Of a stretch of 48,094 bases of DNA, positions 11,658 to 42,910 are shown in pieces; position 1 is the stretch's first letter; every line of letters begins with the position of its first letter. The notes beneath the pieces are model-generated. The model was not told the DNA's origin. It saw nothing but the letters and a program-made list of their open reading frames with translations, and searched no databases. The DNA comes from Lysobacteraceae bacterium (GTDB taxonomy: Bacteria > Pseudomonadota > Gammaproteobacteria > Xanthomonadales > Ahniellaceae), in NCBI GenBank assembly GCA_021299185.1, contig JAJTHZ010000018.1:1-48094 (forward strand), written 5' to 3'. The position numbers and the translations under genes were made by a program.

Positions 11658-12139
11658 ACGGCCCCTTCGTGCGCCGCCTGCGGGTGGTCGAGGTCGCTGC
11701 CGACCGCGCCAGCCTCGAGCCCGCGAGCGGCGCCTGCGAAGGCTGCACGGCCTGCAGCGGGCGCTGCCACGGGATCCTGTCCGGGCTGTCGGCGGCGGGT
11801 CGGATGCGCATTGCCCGCGACGTCCTGCCGCCCGCGCTGGCGGCGGGCGACGAGGTCCTGCTCGAGTTCGATCCGGGCGCGCTCGCGCGCCGCGGCTGGC
11901 GCGTCTACGGTCTGCCGCTGGCCGGCCTGCTGCTCGGTGCATGCGCTTCGGCGTTCGCGCTGCCGGCGGCGGGACCGGCCCGCGACGCCGGCGTCGCGCT
12001 CGGTGCGCTGGTCGGCGTCGTGCTGGGTTTCGTCGTCGCCCGCTTGATCGGCGGCACTGCGACCCCACCGTACCGTTTCGCATCCTTCCCATCCCCCCGC
12101 AACGCCATCCCGCCATGCGAGCCCAGACCCGAATCCTGA
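11654..12139 (+). CDS. rseC: SoxR-reducing/RseC-type membrane protein
   Basis: RseC/RsxC-associated family protein, linked in other bacteria to sigma-E signalling and to electron transfer that reduces SoxR. The 161-residue product begins with a beta-rich segment, then a cysteine cluster C28, C31, C34 and C38 that could bind a metal or Fe-S centre. Two transmembrane segments follow (about 83-102 and 107-127). The start overlaps the rseB stop by ATGA, and the last 25 bases overlap the beginning of degP. Confidence 0.88.
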
Positions 12140-13539
12140 GTGTGCTGCTGATCCTCCTGGCCGCCGCGCTGAGCGCGCCGGCCTTCGCCCAGTTGCCCGA
12201 CTTCGTGCCGCTGGTCGAGAAGAACACCCCCGCCGTGGTCAACATCACGGCGCGCAAGACCGGCGCGGGTGGCTCGGCGGACGATCCGTCGCAGATCAAC
12301 CCCGAGGACATGCCCGAGCTGTTCCGCCGCTTCTTCGGCCCCGGCATGCCCGACCCGCACCGCGGGATGACCCCGGAGCGCATTTCCGGCGGTTCCGGCT
12401 TCGTGATCAGCGCCGATGGCTACCTGCTGACCAACCACCACGTGGTCGACGGCGCGGACGAGATCACCGTGCGCCTGAAGGACCGCAGCGAGTACACCGC
12501 CAAGCTGGTCGGCTCCGACCCGCAGAGCGACGTTGCCCTGCTCAAGATCGACGCCACCGGCCTGCCCACGGTCACGCTCGGCAACTCCGATTCGCTCAAG
12601 CCCGGCCAGTGGGTGCTCGCGATCGGCTCGCCGCTGGGGCTCGAGTACAGCGTCGCCGCCGGCATCGTGTCGGCGGTCGGGCGCAGCAACCAGTTCGACA
12701 ACACCCAGCGCTATGTGCCCTTCATCCAGACCGACGTGGCGATCAACCGCGGCAATTCCGGCGGCCCGCTGATCAACCTCGCCGGCGAGGTGGTGGGCAT
12801 CAACTCGCAGATCCTGTCCACCAGCGGCGGTTCGATCGGCCTGTCGTTCTCGATCCCGATCAACCTGGTGAAGTCGGTGACCGAGCAGCTGCGCACCAAG
12901 GGCCGCGTGTCGCGCGGCGTGCTGGGCGTGGGCATCCAGAACGTCACCCGCGACGTCGCCGAGACCTTCAAGCTGCCGCGCATCGGCGGCGCGGCGGTCA
13001 GCAACGTGCAGCCCGATTCCGCGGCCGAGAAGGCCGGGGTGAAGGCCGGCGACATCATCCTGTCCTACAACGGCACCGAGATCGGCGATTCCAGCGAACT
13101 GCCGCCGCTGGTCGGCGCCACCGCGCCCGGCACCCGCGCCCGCATCACCGTGTTCCGCGACGGCAAGACGCTGGAACTGCCGGTGGTGGTGGGCGAACTG
13201 GAGGAAGGCGAGGCCTCGCCGGCACGGGCCGAGGCACCGGCCGCGGCCTCGCGCAGCGCGCTGGGCCTGGTGGTGCGCGCGCCGACCGCCGAGGAACGCG
13301 AGGCGATCGGCGAGCAGGGCGGGGTGGTGGTCGAGCGCGTCGAAGGCGCGGCCGCCCGCCGCGCCGGCCTGCAGCCGGGCGACGTGGTGCTGATGGTCGG
13401 CCGCACCCGGGTCGCCTCGGTGGCCGAGTTCGAGGCCGCGGTGAAGGGCATCCCCGCCGACCAGACCGCGCTGCTGCTGGTCCGTCGCGGCGAGGGCAGT
13501 TCCTTCATCGGCGTGCGCCCCGAGCCCAAGGGGCGCTGA
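12115..13539 (+). CDS. degP: Periplasmic serine protease DegP/MucD
   Basis: HtrA-family protease-chaperone that removes misfolded envelope proteins. It is 474 residues with a signal peptide ending around APAFAQ. The trypsin-like domain has the full triad: H109 in TNHHVVD, D139 in QSDVALLKI and S215 in GNSGGPL. Two PDZ domains follow, about 270-360 and 385-470. The start lies inside the rseC reading frame (25-base overlap), so it is translated as part of the rpoE operon. DegQ-type naming is also possible; operon position favours MucD. Confidence 0.95.
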
Positions 13540-19910: not shown

Positions 19911-21206
19911 TTGAGCGACGTCGAACTCACCATCGAGGACCTGAGCCACGACGGCCGCGGCGTGGCCCGCGTCGACGGCAAGGCGTGGTTCGTGGCCGGC
20001 GGCCTGCCGGGCGAGCGGGTGCGCGCGAAGCGCACCGCCAAGCACCGCCAGTTCGACGAGGCCGAGGTGGTCGAGGTGCTCGACGCCTCGCCCGAACGCG
20101 TCGCGCCCGCCTGCCCGCACTTCGGCACCTGTGGCGGCTGCTCGCTGCAGCATCTGTCGCCGGCCGGCCAGATCGCGGCCAAGCAGCGCACCCTGCTCGA
20201 GAACCTCGAGCGCATCGGCCACGTGGCGCCGGCGCGCGTGCTCGCCCCGCTGCAGGGCGCCCCGTGGGGCTACCGCCGGCGCGGTCGGCTGTCGGCCAAG
20301 TGGGTGGAGAAGAAGGGCCGCATGCTGGTGGGTTTTCGCGAGACCAACGGCCGCTTCGTGGCCGAACTCTCGCGCTGCCCGGTGCTGCACCCGGCGATCG
20401 GCGAGCGCATCGATGCGCTGGCGCGCACCATCGAGGCGATGGATGCGCGGCGCGAGATCCCGCAGGTGGAGTTCGCGGTCGGCGACGCGCAGGGCGCGCT
20501 GGTGTTCCGCCATCTGGTCGAACTCGGCCCCGCCGATCGCGAGCGACTGGCCGCCTTCGGTCGTGAGAACGGGCTGTACATCTACCTTCAGCCCGGCGGC
20601 CTCGACAGCGTGGTCGCGCTGGAGCCGGCCGACGCCGCCCTGTCCTTCGCGCTGCCGGCTTACGACGTCTCGCTGGCCTTCCGCCCGCTGGACTTCATCC
20701 AGGTCAACGGCGACATCAACGCGCGCATGATCGATCATGCGCTGGCCCTGCTCGATCCGCGCCCCGAGGACCGCGTGCTGGACCTGTTCTGCGGGCTCGG
20801 CAACTTCACCCTGCCACTGGCCCGGCGCTGCGCACACGTCACCGGCGTCGAGGGCGAGGCGGGCCTGGTGCAGCGTGCGCGCGACAACGCCGCGCGCAAC
20901 GGCATCGCCAATGTCGAATACCACGCCGCAAACCTCGCGCAGGACCAGCGCGACGCGCCCTGGGCGCGCGCCAAGCACGACCTCGTCCTGCTCGATCCGC
21001 CGCGCGCCGGCGCGATCGAGGTGCTGGCCTACCTGCCGCGCAAGGACGTGCGCCGCGTGGTCTACGTGTCCTGCCATCCCGTGAGCCTCGCCCGCGACGC
21101 CGGCGTGCTGGTCCGCGAGCACGGCTTCAAACTCGCCGCCGCCGGAGTGATGGACATGTTCCCGCACACGGCGCATGTGGAGTCGATTGCCGTGTTCGAG
21201 CGGTAG
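19911..21206 (+). CDS. rlmD: 23S rRNA (uracil-1939-C5)-methyltransferase RlmD
   Basis: Methylates U1939 of 23S rRNA using S-adenosylmethionine. From the TTG start it is 431 residues. An N-terminal TRAM domain (VELTIEDLSHDGRGVARVDG) precedes the Fe-S cluster ligands C68, C74, C77 and C156 (CPHFGTCGGC). The methyltransferase core has DLFCGLGNFTLPLAR, and the nucleophile is C388 in YVSCHPVSLARD. All elements of an active RumA/RlmD are present. It is divergent from the REC-HPt gene and is followed by the heptamer repeat block. Confidence 0.95.
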   Translation: MSDVELTIEDLSHDGRGVARVDGKAWFVAGGLPGERVRAKRTAKHRQFDEAEVVEVLDASPERVAPACPHFGTCGGCSLQHLSPAGQIAAKQRTLLENLERIGHVAPARVLAPLQGAPWGYRRRGRLSAKWVEKKGRMLVGFRETNGRFVAELSRCPVLHPAIGERIDALARTIEAMDARREIPQVEFAVGDAQGALVFRHLVELGPADRERLAAFGRENGLYIYLQPGGLDSVVALEPADAALSFALPAYDVSLAFRPLDFIQVNGDINARMIDHALALLDPRPEDRVLDLFCGLGNFTLPLARRCAHVTGVEGEAGLVQRARDNAARNGIANVEYHAANLAQDQRDAPWARAKHDLVLLDPPRAGAIEVLAYLPRKDVRRVVYVSCHPVSLARDAGVLVREHGFKLAAAGVMDMFPHTAHVESIAVFER

Positions 21207-21225
21207 GTTTTGGGGGGCAGGGAGG

Positions 21226-21505
21226 AGGGTATAGGGCTTAGGGCATGGGGCTTAGGGTATAGGGCCCAGGGTATAGGGCCCAGGGCCCAGCCGAAGGGAT
21301 GGAGGGCCTTGTGCGGTGATGCGCGATGGTTATCGTCCATGCAGTCGCCTCGACGCGGGGATCGTGCCCCGGTCCCCAAACTGCTCTATACCCTGGGCCC
21401 TATACCCTTGTGCTCCGAGCGCACGGTCGCGGCCGACCACGCGCAACCCCCATCGAAGCCGCTGGGCCCTGGGCCCTGAGCCCTGAGCCCTGAGCCCTGG
21501 GCCCT
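21226..21505. repeat. Inverted arrays of 7-base tandem repeats
   Basis: The 362-base gap between rlmD and the CYTH gene contains three heptamer arrays. Array 1 (21226-21288) is nine units of the form AGGGNNN (AGGGTAT, AGGGCTT, AGGGCAT, AGGGCCC). Array 2 (21388-21408) is three units in the opposite orientation. Array 3 (21464-21505) is six units in the opposite orientation (GGGCCCT, GAGCCCT). Bases 21254-21274 and 21388-21408 form a perfect 21-base inverted repeat enclosing 113 bases. Reading frames here translate to repetitive Gly/Arg/Ala peptides and are not genes. Function unknown; large hairpin or cruciform formation is possible. Confidence 0.9.
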
Positions 21506-21568
21506 CAATCAGCATTCGACCGGGAAGCACCCCATGCCCCCGAAAAGAACAACAACCGGAGCCGCAAG

Positions 21569-22060
21569 TTGGGCGTAGAAATCGAACGCAAATTCCTCCT
21601 CCGCAACGACGCCTGGCGCGCGGAAGCGCAGCGCAGCGTGCGCATGGTGCAGGCCTATCTCGGCGGCGACCGCTGCTCGGTGCGGGTGCGGATCGAGGGC
21701 AACGAGGCGTTCCTCAACCTGAAGTCGAAGGACCTCGGCGCACAACGGCTGGAGTTCGAGTATCCGGTGCCGGTGGTCGAGGCCGAGCAGATGCTCGCCG
21801 CCTTCGGCGGCCAGCAGGTGGCGAAGACGAGGCACTATGTCGTTCGCGGCGCGCACACCTTCGAGATCGACGTGTTTTCCGGCGACAATGCGGGCCTGGT
21901 GGTGGCCGAGGTCGAACTCGGCGCGGTGGACGAGGCCTTCGAGCGACCGCATTGGCTGGGCGCCGAGGTCACCGACGATCCGCGCTACTACAACGTCGCG
22001 CTCGCGCGCGTGCCCTTCCACACCTGGCCGGACCGCGAGGCGTTCCGCGCCGGAGGCTGA
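21569..22060 (+). CDS. CYTH domain protein (triphosphate tunnel metalloenzyme family)
   Basis: A 163-residue single CYTH domain. It has the diagnostic N-terminal ExExK motif (E4, E6, K8 in VEIERKFLL) and alternating charged strands (RVRIEG, LNLKSKD, RLEFEYPVP, EIDVFSG, VVAEVEL) that line the tunnel. Known members act as inorganic triphosphatases; some are adenylate cyclases, which a single short domain does not favour. The only start with proper length is TTG at 21569. It precedes nagZ by 1 base, making it the first gene of the CYTH-nagZ-hpt-mtnP operon. Confidence 0.9.
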   Translation: MGVEIERKFLLRNDAWRAEAQRSVRMVQAYLGGDRCSVRVRIEGNEAFLNLKSKDLGAQRLEFEYPVPVVEAEQMLAAFGGQQVAKTRHYVVRGAHTFEIDVFSGDNAGLVVAEVELGAVDEAFERPHWLGAEVTDDPRYYNVALARVPFHTWPDREAFRAGG

Positions 22061-24715: not shown

Positions 24716-27700
24716 ATGACGATCCCGTTCTTCGAGAAGCCGATCCTCAACTCGCCGTACCGGTACCCCACGAAGCATTGGGAACTGGACGGTTCTGGAC
24801 AGCCCACCCAGAGAATCCTTGACAGCCGCCGCCCGGCCGACTTCATCACCCCCATCCCGAAACCGCGCAAGCGCAAGGGCGGCGCCGGCGATCAAGGATC
24901 GTTGGTCTTCGACGAAGGCAAGGCGCTGTCCACGGCGGACCAGCAGTACAGCCATACCGCCGTCATCAACGGCGTCCGTCAGGAAGTCGATGCTTGGCGC
25001 CAGCTACCGCAGTCACAGTGGCGGGTAACTTCGGAGACCGCGCGGCTGCTGAACCACTGGCGCAGCCATCCCTTTTCCAGCATCCGCCCGTTCTTCTGCC
25101 AGGTCGAGGCCGTCGAGACTGCGATCTGGCTGACCGAGGTCGCGCCTGAGTTGGGGAAATCGGGACAACGCTTCCTCGATCATCTGCGACAAGCCAACGC
25201 CGACGCCAACCCCGATCTGATGCGCGTCGCGTTGAAGCTCGCCACCGGTGCCGGCAAGACCACGGTCATGGCCATGCTGATCGCCTGGCAGACGGTCAAT
25301 GCCGTGCGCCACCCCGGCAGCAAGCGGTTCAGCCGCGGGTTCCTGATTGTCGCGCCCGGGCTGACCATCAAGGACCGCCTGCGGGTCCTCAACCCCAGCG
25401 ACCCGGACAGCTACTACGCCAGCCGGGAACTCGTCCCCACCGACATGCTGGGTGAGGTCGAGCGCGCCAAGATCGTCATCACCAACTACCACGCCTTCAA
25501 GCTGCGCGAGCGCGTGGAGCTGTCCAAGGGTGGTCGCCTGCTTCTGCAAGGGCGCGGTGGCGACGCGCCGAACACCCAGGAAACCGAAGGCCAGATGCTC
25601 CAGCGCGTCATGCCCGAATTGATGGGCATGAAGAGCATCCTCGCGATCAACGACGAGGCGCATCACTGCTACCGCGAGAAGCCCGACGCCGCAGACGACG
25701 ATGACCTGAAGGGCGACGACAAGCGCGAGGCCGAAGAGAACAACGAGGCCGCGCGCCTGTGGATCTCCGGCCTCGAAGCGGTCAATCGCAAGCTCGGCAT
25801 TTCGCTCGTGATCGACTTGTCTGCCACGCCGTTCTTCCTGCGCGGCTCCGGCTACGCCGAAGGCACGCTGTTCCCGTGGACGATGAGCGATTTCTCGCTG
25901 ATGGATGCCATCGAGTGCGGCATCGTCAAGCTCCCGCGCGTGCCCGTGGCCGACAACATCCCCGGCACCGAGATGCCGAAGTTCCGCGAACTCTGGAAGC
26001 ACATCGGCCCGAAGATGCCGAAGAAGGGCCGCGGGAAGGCCAGCCAGCTCGACCCGCTCAGTATTCCCGTCGAACTGCAGACGGCACTGGAAGCGCTCTA
26101 CGGCCACTACGCGAAGACCTTCGCGCTGTGGGAGCAGGCCAAGATCCGCGTACCGCCCTGCTTCATCGTGGTGTGCAACAACACGTCCACGTCCAAGCTC
26201 GTCTACGACTACATCTCCGGCTTCCACCAGGAGAACGAGGACGGCTCAACCACACTGCAGAACGGTCGCCTGCCGTTGTTCCAGAACTTCGACGAGCACG
26301 GCAACCCGATCCCGCGCCCGCGCACCCTGCTGATCGACTCCGAGCAACTCGAATCAGGCGAAGCCCTCGATGACAAGTTCCGCAGCATGGCTGCCGACGA
26401 GATCGACCGCTTCCGTCGCGAGATCATCGAACGCACGGGCGACGTGCGTGCCGCCGAAACCATCAGCGACCAGGATCTGCTGCGCGAGGTCATGAACACC
26501 GTCGGCAAGGAAGGCCGGCTCGGCGAATCCATCCGCTGTGTGGTCTCGGTCGCCATGCTCACCGAGGGCTGGGATGCCAACACGGTCACCCATGTGCTCG
26601 GTGTGCGCGCCTTCGGCACCCAGTTGCTGTGCGAACAGGTCATCGGCCGAGCGCTGCGCCGCCAGTCCTACGAGACCAACGAGGAAGGCCTGTTCAACGT
26701 CGAATACGCCGATGTGCTGGGCATTCCCTTCGACTTCACCGCCAAGCCCGTGGTCGCCCCGCCGCAGCCGCCGCGCGAGACGGTCCATGTGCGTGCGGTC
26801 CGGTCCGACCGCGACGCGCTGGAAATCCGCTTCCCGCGCGTCCAGGGATACCGTGTGGAGCTGCCCGAAGACCGGCTGACCGCCAGCTTCAACGAGGACT
26901 CGGTGCTCGAACTCACGCCCGAGATCGTCGGCCCCTCGATCACCCGCAACGCCGGCATCATCGGCGAAGCCGTCGACCTGAACCTCCAGCACCTCGGCGA
27001 TCTGCGCCACTCGACCTTGCTGTTCCACCTGACGCAGCGCCTTCTTTACACCAAGTGGCGCGACCAGGGCGAGCAGCCCAAGCTCCATCTGTTCGGCCAG
27101 CTCAAGCGCATCACGAAGGAATGGCTGGACCACAGCCTCGTCTGCAAGGGCGGCACCTTCCCCGGCCAGCTCATGTACCAGGAACTGGCCGATCTCGCCT
27201 GCGAGCGCATCACCCGCGCCATCACCCAGGACGAGCTGAAAAAGGGCAGGCCGGTCAAGGTCATCCTCGACCCGTACAACCCCACCGGCTCAACCGCGCA
27301 CGTCAGCTTCAACACCTCGCGGGCGAATCGCTGGGAGACCCTCGGCCCGCCGCCGCGCTGTCACGTCAACTGGGTGGTTCTCGACAGCGACTGGGAAGCG
27401 GAGTTCTGCCGCGTCGCCGAATCCCATCCGCGGGTGCTGGCCTACGTCAAGAACCACAACCTCGGCCTCGAAGTCCCGTATCGCTACGGCTCTGTCACCC
27501 GCCGCTACTTCCCCGACTTCATCGTCAAGATCGACGACGGCCGCGGCCCGGACGACCCGCTGCACCTCGTCGTGGAGGTGAAGGGCTACCGCCGCGAGGA
27601 CGCCAAGGAGAAGAAGGCGACCATGGACTCCTACTGGATTCCCGGCGCCAACAACCTCAAGACCCACGGCCGCTGGGCCTTCGCCGAGTTCACGGACGTC

Positions 27701-27826
27701 TACGAGATGCAGGAGGACTTCGCCGCCAAGGTCGAGGCCGCGTTCGAACAGATGCTGGCCGCCATCTGCAACGGGAGCGGGCATTTCCATACACATCCCG
27801 GTGACGTGCATAGGAAAGTGCCGTAA
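24716..27826 (+). CDS. Type III-like restriction endonuclease subunit: helicase with C-terminal nuclease domain
   Basis: A 1036-residue ATP-dependent restriction subunit. The SF2 translocase part has ATGAGKTT at 176-183 (K181), VIVITNYHAF-like motif Ia/Ib sequence, the DEAH box NDEAHH at 312-317, DLSATPFFL, and motif VI IGRALRRQSY. The C-terminal region holds a PD-(D/E)xK nuclease: FPDF (D934) and VVEVKGY (E954, K956). It resembles the group I recall as BPTD_3080-type endonucleases. A good ribosome binding site precedes the ATG. In the usual type III order mod comes first; here res is first and a Fic gene separates it from mod. GC content is lower than in the housekeeping flanks. Confidence 0.9.
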   Translation: MTIPFFEKPILNSPYRYPTKHWELDGSGQPTQRILDSRRPADFITPIPKPRKRKGGAGDQGSLVFDEGKALSTADQQYSHTAVINGVRQEVDAWRQLPQSQWRVTSETARLLNHWRSHPFSSIRPFFCQVEAVETAIWLTEVAPELGKSGQRFLDHLRQANADANPDLMRVALKLATGAGKTTVMAMLIAWQTVNAVRHPGSKRFSRGFLIVAPGLTIKDRLRVLNPSDPDSYYASRELVPTDMLGEVERAKIVITNYHAFKLRERVELSKGGRLLLQGRGGDAPNTQETEGQMLQRVMPELMGMKSILAINDEAHHCYREKPDAADDDDLKGDDKREAEENNEAARLWISGLEAVNRKLGISLVIDLSATPFFLRGSGYAEGTLFPWTMSDFSLMDAIECGIVKLPRVPVADNIPGTEMPKFRELWKHIGPKMPKKGRGKASQLDPLSIPVELQTALEALYGHYAKTFALWEQAKIRVPPCFIVVCNNTSTSKLVYDYISGFHQENEDGSTTLQNGRLPLFQNFDEHGNPIPRPRTLLIDSEQLESGEALDDKFRSMAADEIDRFRREIIERTGDVRAAETISDQDLLREVMNTVGKEGRLGESIRCVVSVAMLTEGWDANTVTHVLGVRAFGTQLLCEQVIGRALRRQSYETNEEGLFNVEYADVLGIPFDFTAKPVVAPPQPPRETVHVRAVRSDRDALEIRFPRVQGYRVELPEDRLTASFNEDSVLELTPEIVGPSITRNAGIIGEAVDLNLQHLGDLRHSTLLFHLTQRLLYTKWRDQGEQPKLHLFGQLKRITKEWLDHSLVCKGGTFPGQLMYQELADLACERITRAITQDELKKGRPVKVILDPYNPTGSTAHVSFNTSRANRWETLGPPPRCHVNWVVLDSDWEAEFCRVAESHPRVLAYVKNHNLGLEVPYRYGSVTRRYFPDFIVKIDDGRGPDDPLHLVVEVKGYRREDAKEKKATMDSYWIPGANNLKTHGRWAFAEFTDVYEMQEDFAAKVEAAFEQMLAAICNGSGHFHTHPGDVHRKVP

Positions 27827-27867: not shown

Positions 27868-28959
27868 ATGGCACACACTCCCTTCCCGCCGCCCCTGGAA
27901 GCGCTCGCACCGGCCCGGTTCGACACGGTGCCCATTCTGAAGAAGCTGGCCATGGCCCACCGCCACCTGGCCGAACTCAAGGGCGTGGCCGCGTCCATGC
28001 CCAACCAGGGCATTCTGATCAACACGCTGGCCCTGCGCGAAGCCAAGGACAGCTCCGAGATCGAGAACATCGTCACCACCCACGACGAGCTGTTCCGTGA
28101 TGCCGCGAATGCCGCCGCCGGCACGCCCGCGGCCAAGGAAGTGGCGCGCTACCGGCAGGCCCTACGCGTCGGTTTCGACTCGGTTCGCGCCTCGGGCCTG
28201 CTCACCACCAACCAGATCATCGCCATTCAGTCGGAGCTGGAGAAGAATCGCCCCGGCCTGCGCAAAGTGCCCGGCACCGTGCTGGCCGATGGGGCAGGGA
28301 AGGTCGTCTACACCCCACCATCGCCCGAACATCTACCGGGCTTGATGGGCGACCTGGATCGCTTCATCAACGAGCCGGAGCGCTTCGACGCCGACCCGCT
28401 GATCAAGATGGCCCTGATCCATCACCAGTTCGAGAGCATCCACCCGTTCTACGACGGCAACGGACGCACCGGCCGCATCATCAACGTGCTGTACCTGGTG
28501 AAAGAAGGCCTGCTCGACATCCCCGTGCTGTACCTGTCCCGCGCCATCGTGCGCAGCAAGGCCGACTACTACCGGCTGCTGCAGAGCGTGCGCGAGCAAG
28601 GCAACTGGGAAGACTGGGTGCTCTACATGCTCGACGCGGTGGAGAAGACCGCGGTCGACGCCATCGCCGTCATCGGCGCGATCAAGGCGCTGCTGATGGA
28701 CTACAAGCACCGCATCCGCGAGGCCCACCGGTTCTACAGCCAGGACCTGATCAACAACCTGTTCTCCCACCCCTACACCAAGATCGAGTTCATCCAGCAC
28801 GATCTGAAGGTCTCGCGCCTCACCGCCACGCGTTACCTCGACCTGCTCACCGAAACCGGGTTCCTGCGCAAGCGCAGGCTCGGCCGCAGCAACTACTACA
28901 TCAATGAACCGCTGTTTCGCATCCTGACCGGCGAAGCACCTCCCACGGACGAAGCCTGA
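27868..28959 (+). CDS. Fic family protein, class II, with C-terminal winged helix
   Basis: Fic enzymes usually transfer AMP from ATP to a protein target. The 363-residue product has the complete active-site motif HPFYDGNGRTGR at 192-203 (H192). An N-terminal inhibitory motif of the (S/T)xxxE(G/N) type lies at 62-67 (S62, E66, N67), which marks class II (SoFic-like) autoinhibited enzymes. Residues about 295-350 form a winged-helix-like domain (KIEFIQHDLKVSRLTATRYLDLL). It lies 41 bases after res and 2 bases before mod, so it belongs to the restriction cassette. Whether it modifies Res, Mod, host gyrase or something else, or acts as a regulator, cannot be read from sequence. Confidence 0.93.
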   Translation: MAHTPFPPPLEALAPARFDTVPILKKLAMAHRHLAELKGVAASMPNQGILINTLALREAKDSSEIENIVTTHDELFRDAANAAAGTPAAKEVARYRQALRVGFDSVRASGLLTTNQIIAIQSELEKNRPGLRKVPGTVLADGAGKVVYTPPSPEHLPGLMGDLDRFINEPERFDADPLIKMALIHHQFESIHPFYDGNGRTGRIINVLYLVKEGLLDIPVLYLSRAIVRSKADYYRLLQSVREQGNWEDWVLYMLDAVEKTAVDAIAVIGAIKALLMDYKHRIREAHRFYSQDLINNLFSHPYTKIEFIQHDLKVSRLTATRYLDLLTETGFLRKRRLGRSNYYINEPLFRILTGEAPPTDEA

Positions 28960-42662: not shown

Positions 42663-42910
42663 TCGCGCTGCACGCAGCGCTCCCACAGGCAAGGCACCTG
42701 GCCGATCCGCCGCGTCGAAGCCGGTCGCGTGTAGGAGCGGCGCGTGCGCCGCGAGCTTTTCGCGCTTGCGGCAAGCCCCGGTCGCGCTGCACGCAGCGCT
42801 CCTACAGTCGATGCGCTCGGGCAAAGCGCCGCGTCGAAGCCCAGGCTTTGTGGGAGCGGCGCGTGCGCCGCGAGCTTTTCGGGCTTGCGGCAGCCCCGGT
42901 CGCGCTGCCC
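42661..42910. repeat. Tandem array of paired REP-like palindromes
   Basis: The 330-base gap after mrfB carries two copies of a unit of about 118-119 bases plus the start of a third. Each unit has an inverted element (42661-42689; 42780-42807; a truncated one at 42898-42910). A GCGCCGCGTCGAAGCC-like linker follows. Then comes a forward element (42729-42772; 42849-42893) with GTAGGAGCGG or GTGGGAGCGG, a GCGCGTGCGCCGC hairpin and GAGCTTTTCG. The inverted elements match the family near dksA; the forward ones are a variant. No transposase is nearby. The remainder up to 42992 shows no gene. Confidence 0.82.

Follow-up and report, generated by a model that had tools for sequence, protein, structure and literature searches.

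A gene-less inverted-heptamer element at the rlmD-CYTH junction of a Lysobacteraceae genome and its possible relation to elements carrying an IVP gene

In the 48,094-nt stretch of a Lysobacteraceae genome analysed here (the window), opposed arrays of AGGGNNN heptamers lie between two protein genes. At close to an even chance, we read this feature as a non-autonomous copy, lacking a gene, of an inverted-heptamer element that is related to IVP elements. When complete, an IVP element would consist of an inward heptamer array, a PF05635 gene (23S-rRNA-intervening-sequence protein, IVP) and a second inward heptamer array. The reading draws on the dispersed AGGG family with its constant polarity, a sister GGCGAAT family with one IVP-bearing member, armed IVP genes in other bacteria, sites that are empty in related plasmids, and the long junction in the window.

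The upstream gene (19911-21206, plus strand), predicted by our gene model, is assigned by Pfam (tRNA_U5-meth_tr, 4.3e-21, plus TRAM) to the rlmD/rumA-like 23S rRNA (uracil-5-)methyltransferases, and is 61-73% identical across eight family relatives. The left arm (21219-21290, plus strand) begins 12 nt past its stop codon and holds nine units from 21226, eight AGGG and one GGGG (at 21247), plus AGGGAGG at 21219. The centre (21291-21382) is unique, with a best second match in the own genome of 16 bases (E 0.4). It is followed by the inner right arm (21383-21408, minus strand), with three AGGG units at 21391-21408 preceded by a degenerate one, by a spacer separating both right arms (21409-21456), and by the outer right arm (21457-21505, minus strand) of six to seven heptamer units, six of them at 21467-21505. 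The outer arm ends 63 nt ahead of the start codon of a CYTH-domain gene (21569-22060, plus strand; Pfam CYTH, 4.2e-11). An earlier note on this DNA had described nine units facing three and then six, with an exact 21-base inverted match (21254-21274 with 21388-21408) around 113 bases. Both descriptions are correct, and a repeat search extends the match to 26 bases at 96%, the inner right arm being 26 nt long and 96% complementary to 21254-21279. With one mismatch allowed, AGGGNNNAGGGNNNAGGG has 16 matches in the window; 100 shuffles averaged 0.16, and no shuffle had as many as 16. The RNA of 21207-21520 is predicted to fold at -187.4 kcal/mol into a single long branched stem (z = -6.6 versus 100 shuffles). 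The element does not lie inside 23S rRNA, and no PF05635 gene is present between its arms. Rfam matches at the gathering score in six sources comprised only a tRNA, in locus L089. Elsewhere in the window, a Fic-domain gene (27928-28959) follows the gene of a large protein that contains a ResIII helicase domain (24716-27826).

The same two genes are neighbours in 8 of the 13 rlmD loci from other genomes, namely in seven family relatives and in G043, a genome of another family; in G001, G019 and G028 rlmD has no CYTH neighbour, and the G055 and G006 loci are cut. Counted with the stop codon, the eight junctions measure 4, 4, 8, 10, 12, 33, 69 and 79 nt and are free of arrays, versus 365 nt in the window. 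The window copy would thus have been gained at this junction. The neighbour protein of locus L057 is present in 5 of 9 relatives. A different picture is seen between guaB and guaA (L037:2489-2568), where the junction of the own genome carries AGGG arms within 80 nt and that of six relatives spans 63-156 nt. This copy looks as if it had replaced other sequence or grown on the spot instead of adding DNA, since its junction does not exceed those of the relatives.

The array is not unique. In the own genome (G000, a 4.84-Mb draft) the pattern (AGGGNNN)x3+AGGG has 144 + 159 matches, and the reversed control has 0 + 0. We counted 93 array starts spread across the genome with a search pattern that misses arrays having G as the preceding third base. 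We examined 83 clusters from 75 fetched stretches plus the window; they are a subset, with places of four-unit matches listed up to contig C82 and with C36 and C200:223 outside the wide stretches, and they include contig ends (L104, L105). Both orientations occur in 66 clusters (47 '+-', 8 '+--', 7 '++-', 2 '++--', 1 '+++--' and 1 '+-+-'), and all 66 face inward, '+' first and '-' last. The earlier note would have given up its idea if the array were unique or other copies unpaired, and neither is the case; it also asked whether arrays are always paired, which is right for these 66 and wrong for the 17 single-orientation clusters (6 '+', 8 '-', 3 '--'). The outward order, '-' then '+' within 300 bases, was met once in the own genome (in the '+-+-' cluster) and four times in the G043 loci. 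The variable triplet of 612 units was CCC in 319, TAT in 84, CTC in 78, TAC in 32 and CTG in 18. In 80 inward pairs, two-unit arms allowed, the gaps were 20-44 nt in 28 pairs and from the seventies to 246 nt in 52.

The note had also proposed to look for a conserved central segment, an idea that we rejected. When 47 two-armed centres were compared all against all, most of what matched was other repeats embedded in them, besides short matches; the window centre occurs only once, and nothing beyond a short purine-rich border is shared. Among the embedded repeats, a palindromic repeat related to TAGGGTGCAATGAGCGCAGCGAATTGCACC lies within three heptamer-element centres (L042, L060, L072). The motif GGAGCGGCGCGTGCGCCGCGAGCTTTTCG of a 119-bp tandem repeat present twice at 42663-42908 of the window recurs in the centre of the L049 element, which points to a second dispersed repeat family. 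At 65 AGGG elements a shared 5-mer flanks the element in 4 cases versus 4.3 expected, which gives no signal of target duplication.

We determined the gene context of the clusters with a self-trained codon-usage gene model. None of the 83 clusters lies wholly within a predicted gene, and a few overlap gene ends. They fall between convergent genes in 29 cases, tandem genes in 45 and divergent genes in 5, with 4 at contig edges. Element-free gaps of at least 100 nt in the same loci are tandem in 48 cases, divergent in 34 and convergent in 7. Convergent pairs hold 29 of the 79 elements with both neighbours, versus 42 of the 317 adjacent gene pairs on five contigs, of which 230 are tandem and 45 divergent. 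In tandem pairs the median distance of the element is 33 nt to the upstream stop and 59 nt to the start that follows (p = 0.015), and in convergent pairs the median distance from stop to element is 28 nt. Another possibility is a host-useful hairpin behind stop codons that halts transcription arriving from either side or shields the ends of mRNAs. We consider this unlikely. The placement fits it, yet a parasite avoiding promoters would be placed likewise. A search for terminators (a GC stem followed by a T run) found none in 20700-22000, and the window copy splits genes that are adjacent in relatives. The border A(A/C)AGC at the inner side of arrays would also agree with a 3'-end function; it is seen in 27 of 175 arrays of the own genome versus 3.6% at random, in 43 of 196 arrays of G043 versus 5.5%, and inside arrays of G252. 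However, the test is not clean: the border also stands outside, on the other strand, at 20 of 175 arrays of the own genome, and it occurs in only 2 of 31 arrays of G055 and 1 of 10 of G038.

Selection on base pairing would be expected to leave traces in the arms. The lengths of paired arms are uncorrelated (rho 0.02). Variable triplets agree between arms in 80 of 183 comparisons (expected 0.36), a value reached by 32 of 5000 permutations and barely above chance. There is no sense-strand wobble bias (22 G-U versus 20 A-C mismatches), which also speaks against the hairpin behind stop codons. Together these three results weaken strict base-pair selection. Independent arm lengths would suit another explanation, in which every arm stands by itself as a G-rich repeat and is kept at no fewer than four GGG tracts by quadruplex folding. 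The commonest array length is indeed four units (69 of 176 arrays in the own genome, 97 of 177 in G043), and interior units conserve GGG at 98-99.6%, a value inflated by the choice of arrays by AGGG; the passages of Rehm et al. 2015 (PMC4692102) that we used report a four-unit preference and in vitro quadruplexes for Xanthomonas. Against this, the leading A, inflated in the same way, is conserved at 96-99%, close to the Gs, and CCC, a competitor of the quadruplex, makes up about half of the triplets. The second family of arrays, described below, makes the explanation quite improbable.

Between guaB and guaA of G004, a member of another genus, we found GGCGAAT arms opposite ATTCGCC (L324), at the site occupied by AGGG arms in the own genome and with a similar junction length. 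To look for such arrays we used a period detector that is blind to the unit sequence; with it, periods divisible by three do turn up, as they do in coding DNA. The 382 kb of G004 yielded six period-7 arrays, all GGCGAAT-like, and none at periods 4, 5, 8, 10, 11 and 13; all four two-armed GGCGAAT clusters face inward. Five large contigs of the own genome (398,623 bp) gave 21 period-7 arrays, 13 of GGCGAAT and 8 of AGGGCCC, and again none at periods 4, 5, 8, 10, 11 and 13. This sample is contiguous, not random, as AGGG arrays had previously been seen on these contigs, and it overlaps the earlier loci. All seven two-array clusters in it are inward and built of the same unit on both sides. A single GGCGAAT array lies within a predicted gene, near the end of a stretch (L384). 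Samples of 47-80 kb each from G001, G002, G003, G005 and G008 held no heptamer arrays. GGCGAAT arrays lack GGG and share the period, the polarity and the same-unit pairing, in G004 as in the own genome; canonical quadruplexes therefore cannot be the common principle, and we rejected them as the general reason. For the same reason, the suggestion that the AGGG spacing is selected for protein binding is not supported as a general explanation.

One GGCGAAT/ATTCGCC pair of the own genome (L389:6241-6673, contig C231) encloses an IVP gene (23S_rRNA_IVP, PF05635, 1e-30). The orthologous junction of G004 (L343, about 11731-12140) holds the same GGCGAAT-armed IVP gene. No other IVP matches came up in the loci of the order that were scanned, and the two copies count as one event because their site is a common ancestral one. 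The IVP product is a small four-helix bundle whose relatives have solved structures (2gsc, which is XCC0516 of X. campestris, and 2rld); the protein called S23p is presumably of the same family, in keeping with the Pfam model's name. An AGGG-armed IVP gene was absent from about 0.8 Mb of own-genome loci (with some overlap), from 0.36 Mb of G043 loci and from 0.62 Mb of named loci, and 83 + 67 gene-less elements held no IVP remnants; these scans were locus-based, not genome-wide, and covered loci other than L001-L030, L224-L273 and L294-L337. A search of plasmids with the DNA of a GGCGAAT element gave no match, and a search for IVP in phages gave none either.

Plasmid homologues of IVP are mostly cyanobacterial (24 records). 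Their flanks carry arrays of, for example, AGGGTAT/AGGGTGT, AGGGAGT, GGCAGAA, TCAGGAG and GGGAAAA; the AGGGTAT/AGGGTGT and AGGGAGT arms flank IVP in Calothrix and Nostoc. Other IVP arms are built of ACGTTCA and AAAGCTA units, which again does not suit a quadruplex. We assessed the flanks in 44 non-redundant IVP loci (52 minus 8 near-identical ones; 18 genome or plasmid loci and 26 contigs of a viral collection). The inverted-flank score exceeded that of 95% of random positions in 39 of the 44. At the 5% cut, period 7 passed on both sides in 33 loci and as the best side in 26, whereas periods 8 and 10 each passed in 5. With a period score of at least 13, period 7 was found in 26 loci, period 8 in 2, and periods 5, 6, 9, 10 and 11 in none. 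As a control we used annotated genes from the plasmids. We examined 16 of the 24 plasmid records, and 14 of these 16 entered the control (one record and one IVP being unannotated). Both arms had period 7 in 10 of 14 IVP genes versus 0 of 111 non-adjacent annotated genes, and the inverted score was at least 14 in 11 of 14 versus 2 of 111. The upstream arm was the more purine-rich in 20 of 26. There are exceptions: 5 of the 44 loci lack inverted flanks, a few arms have period 8, and arms in Pseudanabaena are direct. Two IVP genes lie among CRISPR genes. In Picosynechococcus PCC 7003 one stands between cas10 and cmr3 in a CRISPR operon (L426:5980-6336) and is missing in PCC 7002, and a further one stands between cas6 and cas4 in Pseudanabaena (L429).

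Plasmids of Nostocales allowed us to compare filled and empty sites. In Trichormus and Scytonema, IVP lies between two conserved genes. In plasmids of Aulosira, N. carneum, Tolypothrix and N. linckia the same junction measures 13 nt, and the neighbour protein is 99% identical. The two filled plasmids have an additional 428 and 414 nt that hold the arms plus IVP, with GTAAT on either side. The empty site reads ...AAAAAGTAATTAAC... versus ...AAAAAGTAAT, arms and gene, and GTAATTAAC... in the filled one, and from these strings, read by eye, GTAAT appears as a 5-bp duplication. No heptamers were found at the four empty sites. The comparison of these sequences shows that arms and gene were inserted as one unit at this site. 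Nostoc C052 (pC052_E) carries one arm and a truncated IVP at this position, apparently a decaying copy. At the L428 site, four more Nostocales records lack IVP and have 3-11 nt there, and the duplication is ambiguous. The records examined for empty sites were 5 of the best 25 of 99 matches, 1 of the best 15 of 22, and 4 of 10. It could be supposed that arrays are pre-existing targets and that IVP genes merely insert into heptamer hairpins, as IVP-less arrays far outnumber IVP-carrying ones in the own genome. We hold this refuted for the Trichormus/Scytonema site, where the empty sites have no heptamers and the filled ones hold arms and gene in one insertion, and very improbable in general.

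Related genomes show how the arms change. AGGGCCCAGGGNNCAGGG matched in 5 of 398 genomes of the order. Outside the own genome it matched in G043 (217 + 219), G055 (38 + 34) and G049 (0 + 1), which belong to one genus of a different family, and once in one further genome. G043 is JAUIFV01 (100% identity), and we take G055 to be JAGRJL01 (HKST-UBA245), with which the array coordinates agree among the named contigs listed. In three elements common to G043 and G055 the left arms are identical at 30/30, 29/30 and 24/30 positions, the right arms at 23/30, 4/10 (with a badly set boundary) and 33/36, the centres at 71/100, 21/40 and 10/32, and the flanks at 67/100 to 90/97. Left arms are thus better conserved than centres, as a hairpin useful at the 3' end would be, yet right arms are not uniformly so. 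Certain sites are filled in just one of the two genomes, and array length varies between related genomes, a point that the earlier note had wanted checked. In L184 and L200 entire elements are repeated in tandem with differing arm numbers. Heptamer elements also occur in apparent coding linkers of tandem domains that we read as acyl carrier protein domains (L179:199-682 and L193:269-352), with arms kept between species and variable centres. Other genomes of the order contain a GGGATCA run of 40 units (L288:19182-19457) and a GGGAATC run of about 100 units (L293:16876-17571).

A five-unit array of G055 corresponds to a seed of one to two units in G043. This observation, together with the guaB-guaA junction that is not lengthened by its AGGG element and the polymerase slippage suggested for heptamers in the passages used of PMC4692102, would agree with heptamer runs that grew in place from chance seeds and have no meaning. 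We disfavour this explanation and regard it as improbable. Slippage leaves the inward polarity in 66 of 66 clusters and the same-unit pairing unexplained, as well as the tandem copies of whole elements (L184) and the two-armed insertions at empty sites. We also considered REP elements with RAYT transposases and rejected them. PF01797 occurs in 16 of 18 genomes regardless of arrays, with one match in G043, which has hundreds of arrays, and 16 in G001, which has none.

Dispersed copies, inward arms and a window junction of 365 nt versus 4-79 nt in relatives make the mobile non-coding element and the long inverted repeat the best-fitting proposals of the earlier note. Under our preferred reading of a gene-less element related to IVP elements, an IVP element would insert whole between adjacent genes, and AGGG elements would be of the same class, either descended from IVP elements or moved by them. 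In transcripts, the two arms may pair into a single stem, in the manner of the 23S rRNA intervening sequences that RNase III cuts; with the arms so folded, an insertion right after a stop codon could be tolerable. Single heptamers would be gained and lost in the arms via slippage. The common architecture, the sister family in the own genome and the similar inner border suggest the link between AGGG elements and IVP, which does not come from an AGGG-armed IVP gene in that genome. Counting against the reading are the lack of such a gene and of an AGGG target duplication, the guaB-guaA junction that is not lengthened, the uncorrelated arm lengths, the weak triplet agreement, the absence of a wobble bias and the exceptions among IVP arms.

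A wider proposal, which we put somewhat below an even chance, is that the inverted heptamer arrays dispersed in Lysobacterales and cyanobacteria (AGGGCCC, GGCGAAT, GGGAATC and the cyanobacterial short tandem repeats) form the ends of a single class of mobile elements, widespread and scarcely recognised. Its full form would bear IVP/S23p, its MITE-like majority would be gene-less, and the intervening sequences of 23S rRNA would be a special case that landed in rRNA. Past descriptions have kept the heptamer repeats of Xanthomonas and cyanobacteria apart from the intervening sequences of 23S rRNA. If the proposal is true, they become one testable question, namely what moves an element of about 400 nt that has only a gene for a four-helix bundle, and why its ends come in sevens, and 'simple repeats' in many genomes would be annotated differently. 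Titles and abstract openings, with most subscription journals outside the scope, contained no published link between intergenic heptamer arrays and IVP genes.

Several known systems resemble the element in part. REP/BIME elements with RAYT transposases and MITEs are likewise intergenic, palindromic and dispersed; unlike them, the arms here are variable arrays with no fixed terminal sequence. The STRR heptamers of cyanobacteria are comparable short tandem repeats. The TAACTGA heptamers of Beggiatoaceae are also abundant and intergenic, but in the passages used of MacGregor 2015 (PMC4679880) they are direct repeats, mostly within several nucleotides of the start codon. The P6b stem of the Nostoc trnL intron is built on heptamer motifs on both sides, with lineage-specific units and with seven or fourteen bases gained or lost; it belongs to a group I intron, and the passages seen of PMC4476775 do not mention a link to IVP. 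The 23S intervening sequence of Coxiella burnetii, according to parts of PMC4990558, carries the S23p gene, inverted termini and strain-variable heptameric repeats upstream of the S23p start, is cut by RNase III and is called selfish. Its terminal inverted repeats give a long stem as in our case, but it lies inside 23S rRNA, whereas the window element is gene-less and lies between protein genes. Another close system is that of the GGGNATC heptamers of Xanthomonas and the GGGGA(C/T)T heptamers of Nostoc, which form convergent inverted pairs, 70 in Xcc and 75 in Xac, and whose function is stated as open for Xanthomonas in the parts used of Rehm et al. 2015 (PMC4692102). They share with our arrays the period of seven, GGG in each unit, the four-unit preference, the intergenic position near stop codons and the convergent pairing. 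In contrast, the units here are AGGGCCC, AGGGTAT and AGGGCTC rather than GGGNATC, a family without GGG has the same architecture here, and IVP genes are not mentioned in those passages of PMC4692102. Inverted heptamer pairs are thus a known phenomenon; what is new is their link to a mobile IVP element, together with the GGCGAAT sister family, the IVP gene inside one of its pairs, the period-7 flanks of IVP genes and the empty sites in Nostocales.
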